Positions 6,537 to 57,649 of a stretch of 64,000 bases of DNA are shown one piece after another. Origin of the DNA: Lucifuga dentata. Taxonomy: Eukaryota; Chordata; Actinopteri; Ophidiiformes; Bythitidae. Within the stretch, counting starts at the first letter, position 1, and each line of letters starts with the position of its first letter. A program made the position numbers and the translations under genes. The stretch lies in assembly GCA_014773175.1 (NCBI GenBank), contig VXCM01006029.1, forward strand, positions 1 to 64,000. The letters run 5' to 3'. The notes under the pieces are model-generated. The model was not told the origin of the DNA. It saw nothing but the letters and a program-made list of their open reading frames with translations, and ran no database searches.

Positions 6537-7120
6537 AGCAGATGCGTAGCAGCGATAGTGTCAAAGCATGGGTGGAGGAATAATTTACTCCACAGCAGAG
6601 CCGCGTGGATGATCAATACTTTACATAGAGAAAAGAAAGGGCCCATTGACTACGTGGCGGCTGGGCAGGAGAGGTGGGAATCTCAAGAACATGTGATGCT
6701 CCGTGCACGTCGACACCCACGGTGAGTGTGTGCAGGAGCCTGAGAAAATGAGCGGTGATTAAAAATCGACAGCACGGTAATTGGCTTGAGGAATACGGTT
6801 TGTCTGAGCTTCTCCTCTGCACTGTAAAAAGTCTTCCAGCGTTAGTCCATACTACATACATTTAAAACGTAGGATTCACTCAAAAAAAATAATTTTCCTT
6901 TTCAACTGGATTTATATAAGTAACTGCACTCTAAAAAAACTTTCTTTGGTTTAACTTTATAAAAATGAGGCAACATTTTCCAATCATTTTTCAAAGTTGG
7001 GTGAACTAGTATTTTTGAGTAGGACAAACTCAATAATATGNCATTTTCCAATCATTTTTCAAAGTTGGGTGAACTAGTATTTTTGAGTAGGACAAACTCA
7101 ATAATATGTAAAATTAAGTA

Positions 7121-7329
7121 CACTGTAAAATGTGACAAGTTGATCTTACTTAAAGAAAACAGGGAAACCGACTGCCTTGAAAAGTAAATATAACTATTAG
7201 TCTTAAGTTATGTTTACTTTATCTCTACTTGAACTTAAGACTATATAGTTATACTTACCTTTTTCAAGGCAATTGGTTTCCTAGATTTTTTTTTGTTTTT
7301 TGAAGATCAACATGTCACATTTTACAGTG
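7121..7329. mobile_element. 209-bp palindromic MITE nested in the foldback arm
   Basis: Starts CACTGTAAAATGTGACA and ends TGTCACATTTTACAGTG, with good inverted complementarity across most of its length. TA flanks both ends (7119-7120 and 7330-7331). The opposite foldback arm lacks this segment and serves as a natural unoccupied site. The TA duplication fits Tc1/mariner-type insertion. Confidence 0.75.
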
Positions 7330-7666
7330 TACAGCCGATGTGGAAACAGCCAAGAAACTGAGTTGAGCAAACTTGATAGTCATCAACATGTGACCTACAT
7401 TAAACTTGATTAAAATTTAAGAAAGAAACACTACGAAATTCAGTTCCATGAACTCATACATTTTTTAATTTTTTTTTTTGACAAACTCTTGCTTGACTCA
7501 AAAAGAATGAGATCAAAAATCATGCAGAGAAAGTTTAGATTTGATGTATTTAACGTGGATTATTTGTTGGCATGTTTATGTTTGTGGAGTAATACACCAG
7601 AATACAGATAAAGATTTATAAAACTGGTGAAAATGCTGATGTAGCATGTCTGTACTTCCTGTAACG

Positions 7667-7735
7667 GAACTTAACGGTTAGAGAAGCTCGTGACCGAAGG
7701 ATCGCTGGTTCAATCCTTGGACTGGCAGCAGAAAT
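7667..7735 (+). mobile_element. tRNA-like SINE head fragment
   Basis: GGTTAGAGAAGC (7677-7688) resembles a pol III A-box region, and GCTGGTTCAATCC (7704-7716) matches a B-box (GGTTCRANTCC). The spacing is that of a tRNA-derived SINE head. No complete tRNA cloverleaf can be drawn, so this is not called as a tRNA gene. Confidence 0.45.
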
Positions 7736-8248
7736 CAGGTTTGGGGAAGTGAAGTTTGACTCAAACAGACAAATAAGAGTTTGTCAAAATTTAAAAAAAA
7801 AAAAAAAAAATTGTATGAATTCATGGAACTGAATGTCATAGTGTTTCTTAAATTTTAATCAAGTTTAACGTAGATCATGTTGACGACTATCAAGTTTGCT
7901 CAACTCAATTTCCTGGCTGTTTCCACATAGGCTGCACTTAATTTTATGTCTTAAAGTCAAGTATACATTATTGAGTTTGTCCTACTAAAAAAATACCAGT
8001 AGTTCACCCAACTTTAAAAAATGATTGGAAAATNATTATTGAGTTTGTCCTACTAAAAAAATACCAGTAGTTCACCCAACTTTAAAAAATGATTGGAAAA
8101 TGTTGCCTGATTTCTTTTAAGCAGCATTTTTTACAGTGTGTAAGCTTTTCATGTTTCTTCTTCTTCTTGCATCTTCCCTTTGGCTGCTTTCCTCCGTACA
8201 GCCCACTGCAAATCTGGGCTATTACATAAGGCGATCATGAATGTGAAG

Positions 8249-8270: not shown

Positions 8271-8367
8271 CTTGAACAGACCATGCCTGTGGCTGTGCTG
8301 GCCCAGCCACACTCCGCTGCCGGGGGTGAGCTCCATCTGAGGGGGGTCGATCACTCGCTCGTAAATC
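8271..8367 (-). CDS. nell1: nell1 exon encoding the end of the TSPN/laminin-G-like domain
   Basis: This 97-base internal exon translates on the minus strand to IYERVIDPPQ, MELTPGSGVW and LGQHSHRHGLFK. The first base completes the R codon begun by the exon at 39815-40048, giving the family sequence DCNRIYERVID. Human NELL1 has IYERVIDPPD...WLGQ...HGLFK at this place; NELL2 has a different middle (IYERVVEKP), so NELL1 is the better match. The acceptor is TTTTTGGCAG before 8367 and the donor is GTACGCC from 8270. The exon ends in phase 0. NELL1 is a secreted, multidomain glycoprotein linked to bone and neural development. This segment belongs to its N-terminal thrombospondin-N/laminin-G-like module. 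The residue differences from human are my reading and no alignment was run. Confidence 0.92.
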
Positions 8368-18794: not shown

Positions 18795-19860
18795 CTACCT
18801 TCCACAAAACTCGGAGCTCAAATTTTCCAACTTCCTGCTTGAAAAAATGCGGAACGACACTAATGCTGCATTCACATTGATGGTAGAAAAACTGCCCTAC
18901 TGCCGATGGCAGCGGAATGCAGCGCCAGACGGCAGGCAACAATGGTAGACGTGGAACCGTTGCCATGGTAATTAGCGGGATGCAATACGAATCAATACTG
19001 GAGGATACAGTAGCATTTTATAATTTTGCGCCATGTTTTATAAAACAGGAAAGCTCTGGCAGTTTTAGACGCTCGTTTAAAGAAGTGACAGAAAAGACAG
19101 ACACGCACACGCATGTAGGTTCATCCCGTTTTACAGGAGCCAAACTGATAAATTCAGGAACTGAGGATGATGAAGAGATTCAGAAGATATTTCAGGCTGT
19201 CGTCATGTCAGCCGTCCATCTTTGACCCAAGAATATCAACATCATAATGGTTTGTCTTTGCAGCTGCAGTAAGCAGAAAAAGTTGAACAATTTTTGAAAA
19301 ATCTGGCCGTGCTCGGAGTTTTCTGTCGTTCTCTCACTGAAAAGAAGGAACATCCAGTTTTCCTACCGCTCACCATCAACATGTGAATGCAGCATTAAAG
19401 TTGAGCTCCAAGTTGGAAACTCATAGCAAAATCCATCTATTCCGACTTCTATGAGTATGATGTCACTCAACATGACAGCTTTTTCAATGTCAATAATCAG
19501 CTAACAGCAGAATAAAGTATTATTTATTATATGACACTGAAATAAAAAGGTCAAGATATATTGCCATGGTAACTATTTATAGTGTATAATAACTGTTTGC
19601 TATTGATACCTAAGTGTAAATAATTTCAGAATATTACTTCTCTGNTATAGTGTATAATAACTGTTTGCTATTGATACCTAAGTGTAAATAATTTCAGAAT
19701 ATTACTTCTCTGCATAAATGTTTAATACTGTGATTAATATTAAAACAACACAACCAAACATGTAATCTAACTTTACTTTAGTTAGCATTAATTACTAAGT
19801 TTATTTAATCTGACAGTATTTACTGATTTATTGGCGTTCAGGGTCATGTATATAAACGGC
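18795..19860 (+). mobile_element. Older relative of the 60773-61321 element, split
   Basis: 18795-18860 (CTCAAATTTTCCAACTTCC, GAAAAAATGCGGAACG) and 19398-19860 (GTTGGAAACTC, ATATATTGCCATGGTAACTA, AACTGTTTGCTATTGATAC) align in order with 60790-61240. The inserted element at 18863-19395 separates the halves. The left terminus is degraded. A single N at 19645 lies between two 67-base copies and is an assembly duplication. Confidence 0.65.
18861..19397. mobile_element. MITE with TAATGCTGCATTCACAT ends, nested
   Basis: The left end TAATGCTGCATTCACAT and right end ATGTGAATGCAGCATTA are perfect complements. Further inward, GATGGTAGAAAAACTG and CAGTTTTCCTACC continue the inverted repeat. The site in the host element reads CAC-TA-AAG when the insert is removed, which matches the uninterrupted relative (CACTTGAAATC). 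A TA or TWA target fits Tc1/mariner or PIF/Harbinger. Confidence 0.65.
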
Positions 19861-20413: not shown

Positions 20414-21921
20414 ACAAACGGAGAATCAGAGTCCAGGGTTAGAACGGACAAACGGAGAATCAGAGTCCAGAGTTAGAATGGACAAACGGAGAATCAGAGT
20501 CCAGAGTTAGAACGGACAAACGGAGAATAAGATTCCAGGCTTAGAACGTACAAACAGAGAATCAGAGTCCAGGGTAAGAACGGACAAACAGAGAATCAGA
20601 GTCCAGAGTTAGAACGGACAAACGGAGAATCAGATTCCAGGGTTAGAACGTACAAACAGAATCAGAGTCCAGAGTTAGAACGGACAAACGGAGAATCAGA
20701 GTCCAGGGTAAGAACGTACAAACAGAGAATCAGAGTCCAGGGTAAGAACGGACAAACGGAGAATCAGAGTCCAGAGTTAGAACGGACAAACGGAGAATCA
20801 GAGTCCAGAGTTAGAACGGACAAATGGAGAATCAGATTCCAGGGTTAGAACGTACAAACAGAGAATCAGAGTCCAGGGTAAGAACGGACAAACGGAGAAT
20901 CAGAGTCCAGAGTTAGAACGGACAAACGGAGAATCAGATTCCAGGGTTAGAACGTACAAACAGAGAATCAGAGTCCAGGGTAAGAACGGACAAACGGAGA
21001 ATCAGAGTCCAGAGTTAGAACGGACAAACGGAGAATCAGATTCCAGGGTTAGAACGTACAAACAGAGAATCAGAGTCCAGGGTAAGAACGGACAAACGGA
21101 GAATCAGAGTCCAGAGTTAGAACGGACAAACGGAGAATCAGATTCCAGGGTTAGAACGTACAAACAGAGAATCAGAGTCCAGGGTAAGAACGGACAAACG
21201 GAGAATCAGAGTCCAGAGTTAGAACGGACAAACGGAGAATCAGAGTCCAGGGTTAGAACGGACAAACGGAGAATCAGATTCCAGGGTTAGAACGTACAAA
21301 CAGAGAATCAGAGTCCAGGGTAAGAATGGACAAACGGAGAATCAGAGTCCAGAGTTAGAACGGACAAACGGAGAATCAGAGTCCAGGGTTAGAACATACA
21401 AACAGAGAATCAGAGTCCAGGGTAAGAACGGACAAACGGAGAATCAGAGTCCAGAGTTAGAACGGACAAACGGAGAATCAGAGTCCAGAGTTAGAACGGA
21501 CAAACGGAGAATCAGATTCCAGGGTTAGAACGTACAAACAGAGAATCAGAGTCCAGGGTAAGAATGGACAAACGGAGAATCAGAGTCCAGGGTAAGAACG
21601 GACAAACAGAGAATCAGAGTCCAGAGTTAGAATGGACAAACGGAGAATCAGAGTCCAGAGTTAGAACGGACAAACGGAGAATCAGATTCCAGGGTTAGAA
21701 CGTACAAACAGAGAATCAGAGTCCAGGGTAAGAACGGACAAACAGAGAATCAGAGTCCAGAGTTAGAATGGACAAACGGAGAATCAGAGTCCAGGGTTAG
21801 AAAGGACAAACGGAGAATCAGAGTCCAGGGTTAGAACGTACAAACAGAGAATCAGAGTCCAGGGTAAGAACAGACAAACGGAGAATCAGAGTCCAGGGTA
21901 AGAACGGACAAACGGAGAATC
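20414..21921. repeat. 34-bp minisatellite, 44 units, with higher-order pattern
   Basis: Unit ACAAACGGAGAATCAGAGTC plus CAGAGTTAGAACGG, 34 bases. I count 44 units (one, the eighth, 2 bases short) plus a 14-base partial unit. Three main variants recur: A (GAGTCCAGAGTTAGAACGG), B (GATTCCAGGGTTAGAACGT followed by ACAAACAGAG) and C (GAGTCCAGGGTAAGAACGG). They repeat as A-B-C over much of the array, forming a 102-bp higher-order unit. Confidence 0.95.
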
Positions 21922-22688: not shown

Positions 22689-23671
22689 TTACCGTAAATT
22701 CTCTATTAAAAGCCGGTATTCAAATAATAGCCGGTTCCCAATAACAGCTGGGAGATAAGTCTGCAGGATGAAATAGTGGCCGGTCCCTAATAAAGGCCAG
22801 GTTGGTTTATGTCTGTTACTGGTCCAGACAAATAATATTAGTGTATTCTGCTGCTGCTAACACTAACTACAGAGCCTGGGAGGCTAACGGAGGAGGGGAA
22901 AAATGACTTACTAAATCGTTTGAACGACTTTTTTTTCTCTCTCTCTGTCTCCTTGAGCCAGCCTGGGCTCCATAATCAGATGACAGTATCTACGTTTTAA
23001 GTACCAAACCGCTTTAAAAACCTCCAGCCGTTGTCCTTTCAGCCAGAAGGAACGAGCGGACTCAGCGTGAAACAAAGCCATTAACGTGGAGCTCCTTCCC
23101 GGCGAGGAGCGAGTGACGCTCCGCTGTCACACACCAACCAGGAATTGTGGATAAAATGGATGAAAACGAACCTTTCTAAAAGCTAGAGGAATGATCACAC
23201 TGTGAAATGTTTCTCCATAGCGGCGGTGTTTTNTTTTTTTTTTTTTTGTTTTTGTTTTTCTTAAATGTAGTTACAGTGCTTCTATCAGCGGTGGGACACA
23301 AACTGCTAGCCGACTACAAGGCTCATTTCAGTTTGAATCTCACCACGCCTACCATAATAACTGTTGCAGGGAGCGCTGACTCCACGGATTTTACCGCGGT
23401 CATCATTTGCAGGGTTTTTAATGGAAAACTGAAGGACACAAACTATGAAACAGCAAAGGGAAAGTTTGACGAGAAGCACGTAGTTCTACATCCTTAATTA
23501 GAAATAAAGGCCCATCTCCAATAAAAGCCGGTATCTTATAAAGGCCGGGTTCTNTCCTTAATTAGAAATAAAGGCCCATCTCCAATAAAAGCCGGTATCT
23601 TATAAAGGCCGGGTTCTCTCCACGGCTGAGGTAAATAAAGGCCCCGGCCACTATTAGAGCATTTATGGTAA
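22689..23671. mobile_element. 983-bp inverted-repeat element with TTACCGTAAATTCTCTA ends
   Basis: The left end TTACCGTAAATTCTCTATTA mirrors the right end CTATTAGAGCATTTATGGTAA. AAAGCCGG/CCGGC blocks recur near both ends. N at 23233 is in a poly-T run, and N at 23554 separates two 63-base copies. A 96-codon open frame (23207-23497) contains no motif I recognise. A fragment of the same family lies at 1334. Confidence 0.7.
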
Positions 23672-24554: not shown

Positions 24555-24984
24555 CAAGTCAAGTCAAGTTTATTTGTACCTAATATCACATATGATGTCT
24601 CAAAGGGCTTCACAGACCCACACATTAAAGGACCATACCACCCATTTTGCATGTTTGAGCCTAATAAATTAAACTTTCATACATGTTACGTTACTGACAA
24701 TCATTTCCCAAAGGATAAAACCATATTTCAGCTTTCCTGATATTTTGCAAAATCTCTTGTATGTATGAAAATTAACTATATTAGGCTCAAACATGCAAAA
24801 TGGGTGGTATGGTCCTTTAATGGTTCCTGACCATCCCAAGCTCTCTAAGAAGACAGAAATAACTCCCTAAAAAAAATCTATTATATCAGGAAAACATGGA
24901 AGNCCAAGCTCTCTAAGAAGACAGAAATAACTCCCTAAAAAAAATCTATTATATCAGGAAAACATGGAAGATACCTCCAAACAC
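24555..24984 (-). mobile_element. Fish retroposon 3' tail, reverse, split by a MITE
   Basis: TCAAGTCAAGTTTATTTGTA at 24557, then AAAGGGCTTCACAG. After the MITE at 24625-24820 it resumes with AAATAACTCCCTAAAAAAAA and AGGAAAACATGGAAG. This is the reverse complement of the tail seen at 36262-36450. N at 24903 separates two 67-base copies. Confidence 0.6.
24625..24820 (+). mobile_element. 196-bp deletion derivative of the TTAA-ended MITE
   Basis: Both ends are intact (TTAAAGGACCATACCACCC and GGTGGTATGGTCCTTTAA), but the element jumps from TTTTGCAAAATCTCTTG directly to TATGTATGAAAATTAAC in the right arm, losing about 385 internal bases. Only the inverted arms remain. Confidence 0.9.
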
Positions 24985-28041: not shown

Positions 28042-28219
28042 TTAAAGGACCATACCACCCATTTTGCATGTTTGAGTCTAATACAGTATATTCAGTTTTC
28101 ATACATGTAACGTTACTGACAATCATTTCCCAAAGGATAAAACCGTATTTCAGNTATTCAGTTTTCATACATGTAACGTTACTGACAATCATTTCCCAAA
28201 GGATAAAACCGTATTTCAG
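28042..28219 (+). mobile_element. TTAA-ended MITE, younger group, left-end fragment
   Basis: TTAAAGGACCATACCACCC through AAAACCGTATTTCAG. The apparent repeat around N at 28154 is a 65-base assembly duplication. The sequence then changes to unrelated CCAACTTGGTCTG. Confidence 0.85.
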
Positions 28220-28482: not shown

Positions 28483-29522
28483 TTAACCCCTTGTACCTGA
28501 GCGGTCCCAGTACCGGGATTTTAACGATGTTTTCATGAAATACCATTCACAGACGGCATATCGGTCAACCAACTAACGCGACAGCTGACTACGTGAGTTT
28601 TACGGTCACGTGCAGTTCCAAACGAGTGGTCACATGACCCGGGGAACCAACACTCATTGAGTTAGAGGCATGCGTAATGCGGAAGTCAGCGGCGCACATT
28701 CTTCCCGGAGCGCATGTAGCTGCATGACGTTAACGCTGTGAGAGAGAANAGTCAGCGGCGCACATTCTTCCCGGAGCGCATGTAGCTGCATGACGTTAAC
28801 GCTGTGAGAGAGAAATGAGTGTCGGATGGATCGGATGTTTGAAGACGGCAGAAGCCTGACTTTAGTGTTCTCAGGAAATATTCTGACCGTTCTTAGTGAA
28901 TACTTGTAAATAGTTTTGTGGGTTTTTTTCTGTTTTGACGTTTTTGTGCGTTAGATAATAGTTTTACACGTGTCAGTTTCTATAAGCCTGATATGTTGAT
29001 TCTTATATGTTATGTTGTGCAATAAAAAAAACTAATTTTGGAGGTAAAAGTTATATGTTGGTGAAAAGCAGTACTTCACAGACACATTACTTGTACCTGA
29101 TGTAGAAACGCCGTTTGGCTCACTGGCGCCCTCTAGGCAGTCTGGTACAACTACGAGTAAAATGTATGAAAAATGTTTGTGCTTCACTTCTGTTACATCA
29201 AACTTGGTGGAGCTGCAGCTCAGAAGTTTTACAACAAATCCAGTAGCACCAACAGCTACTAAATCATTGTTATAAGAGTGATATTCATCTCTAATGTAGA
29301 ATTTTGAGACAACTGAAGTAAAATTTTAATTTTTCTGTTGTATTTATTCAGCTCTCAGTCTGTTCTAGTGATAGTGATGGAAATCTAACTCTACATCTAA
29401 ATTCTCCAAAGTGTCACTTATCCATGCTGTCCTTATGGTTGTGGAGTTATTACAAATTAAATATGTGCACGCCTTTTTTAGACGTAAATTCCAAAAAAAG
29501 AGCTCAGAGTAGAAGGGGTTAA
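28483..29522. mobile_element. piggyBac-like non-autonomous element
   Basis: TTAA (28483-28486), then CCCCTTGTACCTGAGC. At the right, GCTCAGAGTAGAAGGGG (29502-29518), then TTAA (29519-29522). TTAA targets with CCC-starting inverted ends fit the piggyBac superfamily. The body holds no transposase frame. A second TGTACCTGA motif at 29092 may be a subterminal repeat. N at 28749 separates two 65-base copies, so the real length is about 66 bases less. Confidence 0.7.
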
Positions 29523-31313: not shown

Positions 31314-31966
31314 ATAGATTCCATGATGGTTTCTGAGGATATTCATGCTCCAAAGGGAAAAACGCTTTTGAATGTGGCTTTGCGTTTCGCACCCTGCACA
31401 TGCTAATGCCGCTCTCTTTCAGATTTTGGGTCTTATAGCAGAGATTCAGACATTTAAAGTTGCTGAGAGCTAATTCCTGCACACAATGACTGAGACGGAG
31501 CGCTGGCAGGCAGAGAACAGCAAAAGGAAGCGGGGGGTCGAGTACATCTTCAGAAGGACTGCTGTGTTTGGAAGCCTTTCTGTGTTTTACCCCAAAGGAA
31601 GAAGCCAATGAGGAGAACACAGCAGCCACTTTCAAGTCAGGCCTCCTTGAAGCTCCGCTTTCAGAACGCACCTGAACATCACATGTGCTGCAGACGCCTG
31701 GCAGAGCACGCCAGCAGCAGGAGAGGCGAGGAGCTGGCGCCGCAACTGAGCGGCGCTGAGAGCGGCCGGGCCCTCTGGGAAACGCCGCTGCAGCCAGTCT
31801 GAACAGGAAATGACCTTCTGTGAGCAGANGGCCGGGCCCTCTGGGAAACGCCGCTGCAGCCAGTCTGAACAGGAAATGACCTTCTGTGAGCAGAGGACGC
31901 CGCGTGACAACCAGAGCCAATGTCATTACCGTGATTAGCTATTCAGGTCCAAGACAAAGAGGCACC

Positions 31967-37035: not shown

Positions 37036-37092
37036 TCCATCCATTTTCATTTGCTTATCCCGGTCCGGGTCACAATACACCCACCTTAGAAA

Positions 37093-37375
37093 TAAATTCA
37101 TAAAGCTAACCTAGCTACTTAGTTAGCTGCTGCTGCTGCTAATGCTAACTCAAGTTTTCCTGTTCTATTCAGAATAAATTCATGAAGCTAACCTAGCTAA
37201 CTGTCTTAACTAGCTGCTGCTGCTAATGCTAACTCAAGTTTTCCTGTTCTATTCTGAGTAAATTCATGAAGCTAACCTAGCTAACTGTCTTAACTAGCTG
37301 CTGCTGCTAATGCTAACTCAAGTTTTCCTGTTCTATTCTGAGTAAATTCATGAAGCTAACCTAGCTAACTGTCTT
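37093..37375. repeat. 84-bp tandem repeat, about 3.4 copies
   Basis: AAATTCATGAAGCTAACC recurs at 37094, 37175, 37259 and 37343, so the last two spacings are 84 bases. Units contain a (CTG) run of variable length and CAAGTTTTCCTGTTCTATTC. Confidence 0.9.
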
Positions 37376-39814: not shown

Positions 39815-40048
39815 CTGTTGCAGTCGACGTGCAGCAGCAGGTGCGAGGCGCTGATGGTCAGGGCGATCTTGTGCCACTGGCCGTCGGCGAGGCGGTAGGG
39901 GAAGGACTCTGAGCGAGGCTTGCCTTTGAAGCGGTAGTGGTAACGGNCGGCGAGGCGGTAGGGGAAGGACTCTGAGCGAGGCTTGCCTTTGAAGCGGTAG
40001 TGGTAACGGATCTCCTCTCTGACGCCGCTGCTCTCCAGCTCAAAGTAA
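39815..40048 (-). CDS. nell1: nell1 exon encoding the core of the TSPN/laminin-G-like domain, with an assembly duplication
   Basis: Minus-strand exon. Its first base completes a Ser codon from the 57499-57649 exon, then it reads YFELESSGVREEIRYHY, RFKGKPRSESFPYRLADGQW and HKIALTISASHLLLHVDCN, ending with AG that joins the next exon to give R. The match to NELL1 is very close (HSYFELESSG, EIRYHY, GKPR, PYRxADGQWHK, ASHLLLHVDCNR). NELL2 differs more (EVRLHY, PYILADDKWHK). The acceptor is CCTATCCTGCAG before 40048 and the donor is GTAACGC from 39814. As given the exon is 234 bases, but 39885-39946 and 39948-40009 are identical 62-base copies around an N at 39947. Without the extra 63 bases it is 171 bases, in frame, with both phases fitting its neighbours. 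The insertion is a multiple of three, so it would give a false 21-residue repeat in a predicted protein. Confidence 0.95.
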
Positions 40049-44596: not shown

Positions 44597-44879
44597 TACC
44601 GTATATACTCGAGTATAAGCCAACCCCTGATTTTGACTGTAAATTTAGATTTTTAAAGAAACCCGCAAATAAGCCAACCTCCGATGTTGTTCCATCAATT
44701 TATTTATTTAGCAATTTACCTATGTTTTTTTTTTTTTTTTTTNNNNNNNNNNNNNNNNNNNNNNNNNNNNNNNNNNNNNNNNNNNNNNNNNNNNNNNNNN
44801 NNNNNNNNNNNNNNNNNNNNNNNNNNNNNNNNNNNNNNNNNNNNNNNNNNNNNNNNNNNNNNNNNNNNNNNNNNNNNNN

Positions 44880-57498: not shown

Positions 57499-57649
57499 CT
57501 GTGTTCCGACTCGTGGATGGAGAATATGACGCCTGACGTAGACGACTTCTGCTGGATGGAGGCCAGGAAGGTGAACTCGCTTTTACTCCTGAACAGCTGG
57601 ATCACCTTCTCCGTGATGCGTGCCGGGGCATGCACCGCTCTGCCCGCAT
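57499..57649 (-). CDS. nell1: nell1 exon encoding the first part of the TSPN/laminin-G-like domain
   Basis: 151-base minus-strand exon. The first two bases (AT) finish a codon from the upstream exon, most simply the Asp of the FLFQD motif. It then reads AGRAVHAPARITEKVIQLF, RSKSEFTFLASIQQKSS and TSGVIFSIHESEH, ending AG, which joins to Ser in the next exon. Human NELL1 has EKLIQLFRNKSEFT...QQKPSTSGVI...LEHS here, so the match is clear; NELL2 has a different QxFFQKLRNKNEFT. The acceptor is TTTGATTCCTCAG before 57649 and the donor is GTAACG from 57498. By the mammalian gene this is probably coding exon 3, but the number is inferred. No signal peptide is in the window, so upstream exons lie beyond base 64000. 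Confidence 0.93.

Follow-up and report, generated by a model that had tools for sequence, protein, structure and literature searches.

A very probable false homotype duplication at a contig boundary within a nell1 exon of Lucifuga dentata

Duplications arising at contig joins

In a de Bruijn graph the k-mers are linked by overlaps of k-1 bases, and repeats that stay unresolved leave their traces one k-mer distance away from the contig ends (PMC5368935). Contigs placed next to each other in a scaffold that overlap and remain unjoined are described as negative gaps in accounts of Meraculous (PMC3158087) and ALLPATHS-LG (PMC5368935). In the legend to Extended Data Fig. 5b of PMC8081667, false homotype duplication denotes an overlap at a contig boundary from which scaffolding makes tandem duplicates with a gap between them. 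Haplotype duplication is presented in PMC9516828 as a known cause of false gene and exon gains. In the assembly literature considered, including parts of PMC3158087 and PMC5368935, no statement was found on the printing of one N at such joins.

The locus described here is an exon of nell1 located in a 64-kb stretch of L. dentata DNA, the whole of which is referred to as the window. Within this exon a 62-base sequence occurs twice around a single N, and the repeat is almost certainly a false homotype duplication at a contig boundary, judging from the letters of the assembly and from related proteins. The duplicate belongs to a known class of errors and is without biological novelty. As in the homotype duplications illustrated in PMC8081667, identical tandem sequences flank a gap and their size is set by the assembly. 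The duplicates described there are often as long as a corrected read and come from overlap-layout-consensus assemblers, whereas those of the window measure 62–67 bases, as the K of a de Bruijn graph would probably give. With the negative gaps of Meraculous and ALLPATHS-LG, as these are characterized in the sources cited, the locus would share adjacent scaffold contigs that overlap without being joined in the graph.

The nell1 exon, its neighbours and the gene assignment

The exon containing both copies, delimited by splice borders, translation and comparison with relatives, occupies positions 39815..40048 of the minus strand, between the acceptor CCTATCCTGCAG (...CTGCAG) and the donor GTAACGCA (GTAACG). 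The initial annotation had reported identical 62-base copies separated by one N, and a comparison of the flanks confirms this: the stretch CGGCGAGG...GGTAACGG is present at both 39885..39946 and 39948..40009 (minus strand for both), with 62 of 62 bases equal, and the single N at 39947 in the base listing is the exact boundary between them. Copy 1 would represent the end of the left contig, copy 2 the start of the right one, and the N the putative scaffold join. The exon measures 234 b as assembled and 171 b with one copy; deleting copy 1 or copy 2 yields an identical sequence, and the genome itself most likely carries a single copy, with an exon of 171 b.

Read on the minus strand, neither copy interrupts the frame; the translation contains RYHYRFKGKPRSESFPYRLA twice, the two occurrences being separated by one X, and the 63 added bases do keep the reading frame, as had been proposed. 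The accompanying claim of a 21-residue duplication in the protein stands as far as the frame is concerned, but the repeat really comprises 20 residues plus one undetermined codon. A gene predictor would output NELL1 with 21 extra residues, and the importance of the case is limited to annotation quality.

Two further exons, both on the minus strand and both with an AG acceptor and a GT donor, were placed on either side. The preceding exon (57499..57649, 151 b) ends with two codon bases, the middle exon starts with one codon base and ends with two, and the following exon (8271..8367, 97 b) opens with the final base of one. The initial annotation had taken the fit of a 171-base exon to both neighbours as support for a single copy; the fit is real but uninformative, since 63 is a multiple of three and the phases agree equally well for 171 and 234 b. 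These three exons are those placed in the window; the rest of the gene presumably extends beyond it.

The assignment to nell1, also made initially, holds as well. The three-exon protein with one copy is up to 97% identical to fish proteins named NELL1, those of Larimichthys crocea and Collichthys lucidus, over 76–77% of the query. A Poecilia mexicana entry whose sole designation is laminin G domain protein is 93% identical to it over 100% of the query. By themselves these matches would indicate a spiny-rayed fish as the most likely source of the window. Among the 49 relatives found, the gene is named NELL1 in all 12 matches whose name states a gene. The exon at 39815..40048 and both its neighbours thus resemble fish NELL1. 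The same protein contains Pfam Laminin_G_2 at 38.5 bits, above the cut-off of 22.9, and its residues 3–139 of 139 are matched in the solved chains of NELL2 and NEL. In that search of solved structures only NELL2 and NEL chains were matched, and no NELL1 chain, so the preference for NELL1 over NELL2 comes from the named protein relatives. On these comparisons the thrombospondin-N/laminin-G-like domain encoded here appears closer to NELL1 than to NELL2. In NELL1 the VWC and EGF-like domains lie further along the protein.

Recurrence of the repeat around single Ns

The strongest evidence for an artefact, not mentioned in the finding of the initial annotation, is the recurrence of the same signature at other single Ns. 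Of the Ns in the window 16 stand singly and 137 form one run; at nine of the 16, exact repeats of 62–67 bases abut the N on both sides. Besides the nell1 case, flank comparison identified 67-base repeats around N 7041 (6974..7108), N 8034 (7967..8101), N 19645 (19578..19712) and N 24903 (24836..24970), 65-base repeats around N 28154 (28089..28219), N 28749 (28684..28814) and N 31829 (31764..31894), and a 63-base repeat around N 23554 (23491..23617). The full series of lengths is therefore 62, 63, 65, 65, 65, 67, 67, 67 and 67 bases. Eight of the nine sites fall outside the three placed nell1 exons, and this, together with the narrow range of lengths and the termination of the repeats exactly at the N, implicates the assembler rather than the gene. 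The eight further sites most likely represent the same assembly error, with 526 repeated bases besides those in nell1; from these like cases we infer that the N at 39947 stands for an assembly gap rather than for an ambiguous base. Altogether the nine joins account for 588 repeated bases and 9 Ns, i.e., 597 bases or about 0.9% of the window. A scan of single Ns for left flanks whose end equals the start of the right flank would flag such sites assembly-wide.

A control scan of the N-free positions from 401 to 63600 looked for exact repeats of 40–399 bases with a one-base spacer. Such repeats were found at 0.4% of the positions, only in 20927–21143 and 37258–37292, and both regions are tandem arrays, with periods of 34 and 84 according to Tandem Repeats Finder.

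The repeats probably arose in a graph-based assembler when one contig ended, and the next began, on the same stretch of roughly K bases, so that both carried it; the properties of de Bruijn graphs suggest that neighbouring contigs may share an end of length K in this manner. The scaffolder would then have set the two contigs side by side with one N, for a gap estimated as zero or negative, leaving the overlap unmerged, which would account for the lone N, the full identity and the restricted range of sizes. K would be about 62–67; we infer this value as well as the behaviour of the assembler. Against an artefact it can be held that the lengths of the repeats are not constant (62, 63, 65 and 67), a spread that would need variable trimming of the ends or several values of K. 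It can also be held that the signature is not universal, as six single Ns (3612, 6495, 23233, 26607, 42552 and 51305) lack a long repeat; they lie at homopolymers or short repeats, and their flanks share exact repeats of at most 16 bases. At the remaining N (614) there is a near repeat of 71 bases with 87% identity, which ends in a TC microsatellite, the difference in length lying in the TC tract.

Two of the sites coincide with another structure. At 6955–8121 inverted repeats are nested within one another; the outer arms, of 54 b, are 91% complementary and 1059 b apart. This structure is perhaps a terminal-inverted-repeat or foldback element near a nell1 exon. The false duplications at Ns 7041 and 8034 overlap its arms, which is where they would be expected had the inverted repeats broken the assembly graph.

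One copy or two, and the rival explanations

The comparison with relatives covered proteins of 0.55–1.75 times the query length, a range that leaves full-length NELL1 outside it. The site is spanned by 31 of the 49 relatives, mostly gene predictions or fragments, the other 18 having been dropped before counting as they do not cover it. An insertion of at least 15 residues is present in none of the 31, and in each of them (31/31) the one-copy protein scores higher than the two-copy one. The recurrence of the signature at eight other Ns and the absence of the insertion from these relatives are lines of evidence independent of each other; both support the artefact proposed initially, for which they make a stronger case than was first argued. 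The additional claim that the one-copy protein matches the family without a gap applies to 29 of the 31, which have no indel in the stretch, while the two Albula matches have one extra residue; these two, which are 49–54% identical, are probably NELL2-like. With respect to the NELL1 relatives the extra 63 bases are the sole difference in length in the stretch compared.

The scores of domains and chains change in the same direction. Against three NELL2/NEL chain sequences the three-exon protein obtains 147.0–147.4 bits with one copy and 131.9–132.6 bits with both; the two-copy protein requires gaps totalling 20 residues in its alignment to NEL (9oz6), and each of the two NELL2 chain sequences matches it only in two disjoint segments. 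Against Laminin_G_2 the three-exon protein with both copies scores 32.0 bits, in comparison with the higher value given above for one copy. The as-assembled exon taken alone reaches 22.6 bits, just below the cut-off of this family, and 51.9–54.8 bits against the NELL2/NEL chains, low values that do not result from the extra copy alone, because the query is also shorter.

The alternative of a real in-frame tandem duplication of 63 b (21 codons) in the thrombospondin-N/laminin-G-like domain of nell1, specific to the species or the individual and with the base between the copies undetermined, seems very improbable. The open frame through both copies is what a real duplication would require and is to that extent an argument against an artefact, and the extra 63 bases preserve the phases at both ends of the exon. 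Such a duplication would, however, be accompanied by the single-N signature at eight other sites in the window, it would show no substitution between its copies, it is absent from all 31 spanning relatives, and its insert would land inside the laminin-G-like domain match. It was rejected in view of the recurrence, the identity of the copies and the relatives. That the added length of 63 is in frame is regarded as a coincidence: of the nine joins, four add a multiple of three, against an expectation of three.

A false heterotype duplication, in which two diverged haplotypes and not a graph overlap were set side by side, is hardly credible either and was rejected in spite of haplotype duplication being a reported source of false exon gains (PMC9516828), since copies of that origin should show differences and a wide spread of lengths, while each of the nine repeat pairs is 100% identical and the lengths stay within 62–67 bases. 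The false homotype duplication, in turn, agrees with what is found in the exon: two copies with a gap, the single N 39947, between them, no haplotype variants distinguishing one from the other (62/62), and a repeat length within a narrow range that recurs elsewhere in the window.

Some other features of the window deserve mention. A minisatellite of 34-b units in 44.4 copies, in which long exact matches recur at lags of 102 and 136, occupies 20414–21921, and a tandem array of an 84-b unit in 3.4 copies is located at 37091–37375. The only multi-base gap, the 137 Ns at 44743–44879, is preceded by a poly-T end and followed by a start of 61 bases of poly-A, the homopolymer switching strand across the gap.
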